From positions 1-35,657 of the forward strand of contig JAFWWO010000045.1 of assembly GCA_017523325.1 (NCBI GenBank): a stretch of 35,657 bases of DNA, read 5' to 3'. Positions 9,312 to 11,429 of the stretch are shown one piece after another. Source of the DNA: Anaerotignum sp. (GTDB lineage: Bacteria; Bacillota; Clostridia; Lachnospirales; Anaerotignaceae). A program made the translations under genes and the position numbers. A model generated the notes under the pieces. It worked only from the letters and a program-made list of their open reading frames with translations, was not told the DNA's origin and made no database searches. Each line of letters starts with the position of its first letter. The stretch's first letter is position 1.

Positions 9312-11429
9312 TCATTCCTCAGTCGGTGCTTCCTCTGTAACAGGAGCTTCTTCAACAGCAGGTGCTTCCTCTATAACAGGAGCTTCCTCAACAGCAGGTG
9401 CCTCCTCTGCAACAGGAGCTTCCTCAACAGCAGGCACTTCCTCTGCAACGGGAGCTTCCTCAACAGCAGGTGCTTCCTCTGCAACGGGAGCTTCCTCCGC
9501 AGGAGCGTCAGCCTGTCTCTTGGAGAGGCTGATTTTCTTCTGTTCCAAGTTCACATCAAGCACCTTTACGTTGATGATTTCACCAACTGTCAGTTCATCT
9601 TCAGGCTTTACAACATGCTTATTGGCAATCTGAGAGATATGTACCAGACCGTCCACACCGGGCTCCAGTTCTACGAATGCACCAAAGGGCACCATACGCA
9701 CAACCTTACCTTCTACAATAGAACCAACCGCATATTTTTCAGCAGCTGTATTCCAAGGGTTCTGGGTAACATCTTTCAGGGACAGGCTGATTTTGCCTTT
9801 TTCTTTATCCACATCCAGAACAAATACTTCTACTTCCTGGCCTTCTTTCAGCACTTCCTTCGGGCTGGAAATTCTGCCCCAGCTCATTTCGGAAATATGA
9901 ATCAGACCATCTACACCGCCCAAATCCACAAATGCACCGAAATCTGTCAGTCTGCTTACTGTACCGGTTGCTTTGGAGCCTGCGGAAATGGTTTCGAACA
10001 GAGCCGCTCTCTTTGCAGCGATTTCCTGCTCAACCAAAGCCTTTCTGCCGCCGATGATACGACGTTTTACTCTATCCATTTCAATGATATTGAAATCCAG
10101 TTCCTGACCTTTGAAAACGCTCAGGTCTTCGATAAATCTATTGGAAACCTGGGAAGAAGGAATGAATACTCTCACACCTTTTACGATTGCAATCAAACCA
10201 CCTTTTACAACCTCTGTAACCGTACCTGTTACAACAGCTTTTTCATTGAAAGCAACCTCGATGTCTTCCATACCTTTCTGTTCTTCGATGCGCTTTCTGG
10301 ACAACAGCACATTGCCGTCCCCATCATTCACACGCACAACGAAAACTTCGATTTCATCACCAGGCTTAACTGTCTCGCTGGGAATAACAGCCACATCTCT
10401 GCTAAACTCACCTCTGGGAATGACACCGTCAGACTTAAAGCCAAGATTTACGGAAACTTCTTCGTTTACCACCTGGATTACAGTGCCCTTCACAACATCG
10501 CCCGTATGCAGAGTTACGAGGGTTTCTTCCAACATTTGTTCAAATGTTGCCTCCTCGCCCGCTGCATTTTGTACTGCATTTTCTAATGCTTCACTCATAG
10601 TAACAACTACCTCCTTAATTATTGCGGGGGGCGTAGACGCACCCGCAGTTATACCTATTCTATCATTGTTTGAAAAAAGATTCAACACCAAATCGCAAAT
10701 TGTTTCAATATGGAAGGTATTGTCGCAATTTTTTTTGCAAATCTCCACTAATTTTTGGGTATTGGAGCTTTTTTTATCCCCAATGACGATCATTTTATCT
10801 ACATTTCGAGCCAATTCCACGGCTTCCGATTGCCGTTTTTCCGTAGCAGAGCAAATGGTCTGAAACACCTTCAAGCGATATCCTTTTTCCTGCAAAATTC
10901 GAATCATTTCGTCAAATTTACTTTGACGGAAGGTGGTCTGGACAACCACGGCATACTCTTTTTCCGGCAAAAGCACCGCATTTTCCGCCTCCTGCGGATT
11001 TTCCAATATCACGCCGCTGTGGCCGCACCAGCCGTTGATGCCGATGACCTCCGGGTGGGCTTTATCCCCCACAATCACTATGGGATTTCCGCCTTCCCAT
11101 TCTTCTTTCACAATATTGTGTATTTTCTTCACAAAAGGACAAGTTCCATCTGCAATCGCCATTCCCTTTTCTTCCAATGCGTCGTACAACGCCTTGCCCA
11201 CACCGTGGGAACGAATCACAACTGTCCCTTTATCCACGCCGGACAAATCATCAATAATATGTAATCCTTTTTTCTCCAAATCTCCGGTTACTTCCTTGTT
11301 ATGAATCAATGGACCATAGGAATATAGGGCATCATCGGTATTTTTTTCGATCTGTTCGTAGGCCATTTCAATGGCACGCTTGACGCCAAAGCAAAACCCG
11401 GCAGATTCCGCCACTTTTATATTAGACAT
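9312..11429 (-). CDS. ispH-rpsA: Fused 4-hydroxy-3-methylbut-2-enyl diphosphate reductase / ribosomal protein S1
   Basis: 705 residues. Residues 1–277 are IspH, the last MEP-pathway enzyme, which makes IPP and DMAPP. Its three iron-sulfur cysteines are Cys13 (GFCFGVKRA), Cys97 (GTCPFVKK) and Cys193 ([10 protein letters not shown]). Residues from about 311 to 640 hold four S1 RNA-binding repeats; the third and fourth are the most typical ([41 protein letters not shown]). The last 66 residues are an acidic, proline-rich repeat of EEAP units. This fusion is known in many Clostridia. An AAGGAGG (complement of 10610–10616) followed 11 bases later by ATG (10598, Met278) lies exactly at the joint, so separate S1 may also be made. 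The gene overlaps plsC by 8 bases. Confidence 0.96.
9315..9512 (-). repeat. Tandem repeat encoding the EEAP tail of S1
   Basis: Within ispH-rpsA, ten consecutive six-residue units of the form xEEAPx (one EEVP variant) make up the C-terminus. They alternate so that the DNA period is close to 36 bases, with GCTTCCTCAACAGCAGG recurring on the plus strand. Such a tract can change length by slippage or recombination. Confidence 0.85.
10596..10616 (-). promoter_or_regulatory. Internal ribosome binding site and start codon at the IspH–S1 joint
   Basis: The codons for KEV at the end of the IspH part spell AAGGAGG, and ATG follows after 11 bases, in frame. Translation from here would give a 428-residue S1 protein beginning [10 protein letters not shown], which looks like a natural S1 N-terminus. 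The site is seen; its use is inferred. Confidence 0.5.

Follow-up and report, generated by a model that had tools for sequence, protein, structure and literature searches.

A nested ribosome-binding site and start codon for ribosomal protein S1, predicted at the joint of the clostridial IspH–S1 fusion gene

We consider it very likely, with a probability of roughly 0.9, that the IspH–S1 gene in the window (the whole stretch of 35,657 nucleotides of Anaerotignum sp. DNA analysed here) comprises two nested, in-frame translation units, one specifying the IspH–S1 fusion and the other specifying free S1 from Met278. In the mechanism that we propose, ribosomes that begin at the ispH start codon would read through to give the fusion, and 30S subunits binding to the sequence AAGGAGG, among the last IspH codons, would initiate at Met278 and produce a complete free S1. 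This second initiation would take place on the long mRNA and perhaps also on a shorter one. The idea that one gene might give two products had been put forward in a preliminary description of this DNA, and it is supported by the comparative evidence below, from which we infer that free S1 would be made in this organism and would supply a share of its S1.

The fusion gene is an open reading frame of 705 codons on the minus strand (positions 9312 to 11429), which matches the family NF000907 (bifunctional IspH / 30S ribosomal protein S1) at 789.9 bits against a cut-off of 624. The match spans both halves of the protein (profile positions 2–648 of 671), and a domain search found LYTB (IspH) together with four S1 repeats in this one frame. 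Anaerotignum and similar clostridia are the closest named relatives. Within the assembly, which is 80.5% complete, the fusion is the sole IspH match, and eight S1-domain matches were found, four inside the fusion and the remaining four each at a different place. At the joint, the gene reads ATT AAG GAG GTA GTT GTT ACT ATG, in which the ATG is codon 278 and lies in frame. AAGGAGG, the predicted ribosome-binding site (10610–10616, minus strand), is therefore separated by an 11-nt spacer, TAGTTGTTACT on the minus strand, from the predicted start codon of free S1 (10596–10598, minus strand), exactly as had been described. The nested frame (9312–10598, minus strand) has 428 codons, in agreement with the size previously given for free S1; the predicted product has a calculated mass of 46.1 kDa, as against 76.6 kDa for the fusion, and includes all four S1 domains, which lie within 9516–10508. 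The statement that the S1 part begins at Met278 needs qualification in that the first S1 domain follows 30 residues later, but it holds in another sense, because the S1 reading frame of relatives with separate genes opens at the codon matching Met278. The C-terminal tail of S1, which is acidic and rich in Ala, Pro and Glu, is encoded by a tandem repeat of a 36-nt unit in 4.8 copies (9325–9497, minus strand).

The motif by itself is weak evidence, because AAGGAGG followed after 5 to 13 nucleotides by ATG occurs 306 times in the genome, and the same pattern read backwards occurs 115 times. The 229 fused genes examined for this contain 609 other GGAGG sequences, 12 of which have an in-frame ATG 5–12 nt further on. 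Conservation at the joint, and not the motif, is what goes beyond chance. The spacing is also unusual: among the first 100 of the 306 AAGGAGG–ATG pairs listed, 73 have a spacer of 6–8 nt and four have one of 11 nt, close to the background of 4.2. The nested site thus combines strong pairing with a spacing longer than most in the genome. In Staphylococcus aureus, the Shine–Dalgarno (SD) spacing exceeds that of Escherichia coli by two to three bases because the helix extends further, according to the parts of PMC13009471 available to us; by analogy, such a longer spacing may also apply to the site described here.

To what extent is this arrangement conserved? We collected IspH loci from named genomes and from further genomes of the class, the phylum and a sister family of the same order (f2, probably the Lachnospiraceae). 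In the class, 225 of 291 sampled genomes have a match above the cut-off of the fusion family. Nine loci (L001 and L037–L044) belong to the same genome as the window and were excluded, which left 308 sequences, the window included. The joint was not found by pattern in nine (L030, L033, L290, L306, L307, L311, L312, L314 and L316), two of which, L307 and L311, were read separately and have no GGAGG at the joint. Removal of three duplicates gave 296 distinct IspH C-termini, which a script classed as 236 fused, 37 split with a start at this place and 23 other, where ‘fused’ denotes a frame that stays open for 150 codons or more past the motif, or as far as the stretch extends, and is defined by this frame rather than by an S1 match in each locus. 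Among the split loci listed, S1 was unrecognised by pattern in L164, L262 and L265. One locus, L298, was reassigned to the ‘other’ class, which thereby rose to 24, and three that were cut or contained N (L272, L273 and L301) were dropped, leaving 232 fusions. In L298, IspH is fused to a cytidylate-kinase-like sequence (CMK) in a frame of 512 codons, and its joint reads AAA GAA, with no GGAGG.

Every one of the 232 fusions has an in-frame start after the joint (ATG at 11 nt in 223, GTG at 11 nt in five and ATG at 8 nt in four), and 227 have GGAGG there. The five others are L198 (AGAGAGG), L283, L288, L289 (GAGGGGG) and L069. Pairing energies remain at −10.3 to −12.0 kcal/mol in the first four of these. 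In L069, a fusion of the genus coded g65, the old place pairs at −2.3 kcal/mol, and an in-frame ATG lying 18 nt downstream is preceded by GGAGGGG, which pairs at −10.4 kcal/mol. The S1 start has also moved in L300, a split locus with Met at the Met position, where GGAGGG precedes an ATG 17 nt downstream. These two loci share one genus code, so that a shift of the S1 start by 17–18 nt is seen there once in the fused and once in the split state, with the old site gone. Loss of AAGGAGG by synonymous change in close relatives was sought and is absent; AAG GAG G and the ATG are kept in all 31 readable fused loci, which range from 85% to 43% identity. The site is present in both A. lactatifermentans DSM 14214 and A. 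neopropionicum DSM 3847.

The strength of the site is consistent with a role in initiation. The median pairing energy of the nested site is −12.5 (n = 232), compared with −9.3 (n = 198) for the best candidate start of ispH and −3.5 (n = 1539) for other in-frame Met codons. The folding of 60-nt segments is weakest at the nested start, with a mean of −5.36 versus −6.15 to −11.3 at ten other offsets. In the open frame of 30 close relatives, codon identity beyond that expected from codon usage peaks in the interval centred on residue 278 and remains high into the first S1 codons. When six protein clusters were considered, the joint ranked first for codon conservation in three and among the top eight intervals in f2; conservation there was weak in one cluster and outside the top eight in another.

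Could the motif be a by-product of the protein? If the C-terminal helix of IspH needed Lys-Glu-Val and Met, AAGGAGG might follow from codons chosen for those residues, which lie within IspH; of the 232 fusions, 229 keep Glu at this place and 223 keep Met. Such a constraint acting on the protein only is contradicted by codon choice, for which other positions of the same genes served as controls (229 fusions; three more were fetched later). Lys-Glu before a G-codon is written AAGGAG in 158 of 158 cases at the joint, as against 34 of 686 elsewhere in these genes, and the Glu codon is GAG in 225 of 226 cases, as against 27.6% elsewhere. The Lys itself is not required: on a tree of 241 fused and split rows, its position underwent at least 28 residue changes, and although Lys is swapped for Glu, Arg, Gln, Gly or Leu, the codon ends in G in 239 of the 241 (the other two being AAA and AGA). 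Where Glu has replaced Lys in the 229 fusions, the codon is GAG in 51 of 51. The residues encoded by the spacer also vary, with 78 combinations at two positions. The same constraint is difficult to reconcile with the 24 control IspH sequences that have no S1 start at the place (seven from family f132, four from f40, the far Pseudomonadota locus L036 and the split locus L156 with a changed ATG among them). There, GGAGG occurs in three (L156, L299 and L313), Glu is encoded by GAA in 11 of 14 cases, and the Met position holds Ile (13), Leu (8) or Val (2) in all but one, which has Met. We regard an explanation by protein constraint as extremely improbable. Judged by these codon patterns, the site is conserved beyond the requirement of the protein, and in the phylum sampled, selection on the DNA itself is shown for the bases of the site and of the start codon, as well as for the spacing between them.

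Relatives in which the two genes are separate provide a further line of evidence. In f2, 27 of the 30 loci read have separate genes and three are fused. In 26 of the 27 split loci, the same ATG is preceded, with a 9- or 10-nt spacer, by (A/G)AGGAGG, and S1 lies in a different frame that crosses the end of ispH; in L156, a split locus of this family, the site is present and the ATG is changed. Across the whole sample, GGAGG precedes the apparent S1 start in all 37 split loci that have a start at this place, even though GGAGG formed no part of the class definition. The out-of-frame start at this place is ATG at 9 nt in 22 loci, ATG or GTG at 10 nt in six and eight, respectively, and ATG at 13 nt in one. 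At the old Met position, IspH now has Val (23), Cys (12) or Trp (2), which indicates that the start codon has been kept though it no longer serves IspH, a finding that also speaks against the protein constraint discussed above. In a tree of 47 IspH sequences rooted on three fused outgroups, f2 forms one supported clade within the fused lineages, and the tree implies three fused/split changes and eight spacer changes. A quick tree of 253 of the 296 rows gave 11 fused/split changes, five of which concern rows using the site. Splitting in f2 is thus probably derived, by way of one or two base changes (or their equivalent) in the spacer. Many of the split loci with a 9-nt spacer in the series L155–L183 end ispH in TTT TGA or CTT TGA. 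At such an end, a +1 shift would recreate the fusion, but these endings probably result incidentally from the codons for Phe-Glu in S1.

The comparison of split and fused loci bears on two other readings. One is that the SD-like stretch pauses elongating ribosomes at the domain border, allowing IspH to fold or take up its cluster, without any initiation. The position at the border of two domains and the strong pairing with the anti-SD sequence would fit, but a pause needs no start codon, and ATG or GTG follows in every fusion; the same site, moreover, stands before the apparent S1 start in the 37 split relatives. We judge this reading very improbable. Programmed frameshifting was also considered as a role for the SD-like stretch and is not favoured here. 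The preliminary description also allowed that the site might be a relic of two genes whose separating stop codon was lost; such a relic would have no present use, and related genomes with two genes split at the same point might seem to favour this. It is unsupported, because a useless site would have decayed, whereas synonymous positions are conserved across the phylum sample and the lost site of L069 has been replaced; in addition, the split state of f2 lies inside the fused lineages in the rooted tree. We give the relic almost no credence.

On which mRNA might the nested start be used? In the window's family, a second peak of codon conservation lies about 30 codons upstream of the joint and corresponds, with few exceptions, to TTGAA(T/A)-17-TA(A/G)AAT. 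In the window, a tentative internal promoter, TTGAAT-17-TAGAAT (10657–10685, minus strand), occupies this family consensus place, the end of its −10 element being 58 nt before the nested ATG. We assessed such pairs in nine groups by permuting synonymous codon columns while preserving relatedness (300 trials). The consensus of the window's family, TTGAAT-17-TAAAAT, was equalled by none of the 300 permutations, and that of f2, TTGAAA-17-TATGAT at 260 nt before the site, by two. Three further groups have TTTGCA or TTGCAA with TACAAT at 231–237 nt before the site (20, 16 and 8 of 300). In f2 loci such as L155, TTGAAA-17-TATGAT/TACAAT is conserved about 260 nt before the S1 site, at a place that differs from that of the window's family. 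Predicted internal promoters are therefore likely in two of the nine groups on this permutation evidence, which is weaker or absent in the other seven, and they may have arisen more than once. From these patterns, we infer a promoter inside ispH that would give free S1 its own mRNA.

Taken further, this leads to the possibility that most S1 is made from an mRNA of its own, with its 5′ end inside ispH, on which the nested start is the first, a possibility compatible with our preferred explanation. The permutation results in the window's family and in f2, the promoter-like pairs in the three further groups and the codon conservation at the same places speak for it. Against it, the remaining four of the nine groups gave 6, 51, 189 and 241 of 300, at other places, and the most frequent promoter-like place over the fusions (98 of 227, at 240–280 nt upstream) could stem from an AT-rich protein code. 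We hold the chances of such a predominant separate mRNA to be a little short of even.

If two nested translation units are indeed present, the annotation of one protein misses a free ribosomal protein S1 in the genomes that have the fusion. There would also be a simple answer to how these anaerobes can produce S1 without having to produce as much of an Fe-S enzyme, and this explanation, offered in the preliminary description, is plausible. Two nested units would, in addition, weaken the argument from fusion to shared function and make the role of the fusion directly testable. We see about equal odds for and against a broader proposal for the phylum. In this proposal, the ‘bifunctional IspH/S1’ gene would be two nested genes, with the ribosome-binding site of S1, and often its promoter, inside ispH; free S1 would be the main S1; the spacer would determine whether the fusion can be read (8 or 11 nt keep the frame, whereas 9, 10 or 13 nt give split genes); and no functional link between IspH and the ribosome would be needed to explain the fusion. 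The loci also form a natural series in which the ribosome-binding site stays fixed while small changes of the spacer fuse and split two genes.

The IspH–RPS1 fusion itself is already known. In the parts of the paper available to us, Rao et al. (2015; PMC4746011) reported 447 sequences as ‘Rosetta stone’ fusions, named fusobacterial examples, stated that organisms with the fusion have no other ispH or rps1 gene, and interpreted it as a functional fusion. The gene studied here is the same one, with IspH and four S1 repeats and a score above the cut-off of NF000907; that paper, as far as its available parts show, regards the product as a single polypeptide whose functions are linked, whereas we propose a second product. 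A 46-kDa protein seen there with the Clostridium thermocellum fusion is similar in size to free S1, but we did not count it as such because it was identified as E. coli Rho (69% coverage; PMC4746011, in the parts available). The terms ‘Shine’, ‘internal’ and ‘start codon’ are absent from the main text of PMC4746011. We found no report of an internal start in an IspH–S1 gene, or of free S1 from the fusion, among the titles and abstract beginnings listed from the open-licence PMC literature. The main text of PMC7438776 contains neither ispH, rpsA nor ‘ribosomal protein S1’, that of PMC9045289 neither ispH nor rpsA, and that of PMC4102724 no IspH.

How does the proposed arrangement compare with known systems? 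Overlapping gene pairs can be translationally linked. The split relatives are alike in that their S1 start lies inside the end of ispH; the gene in the window differs in that its overlap is in frame without a stop, so that the fusion can be read as well. A C-terminal product from an in-frame internal start is known for spaO/sctQ (PMC13059759) and for Cas11b, both according to the parts of the sources available to us, and an internal ribosome-binding site followed by an in-frame start is what these share with the IspH–S1 gene. In contrast to them, the nested product predicted here, known so far from sequence, would be a complete and otherwise independent housekeeping protein, and its site has been kept across the phylum sample and through gene splitting; it is in these features that the IspH–S1 gene would be new.
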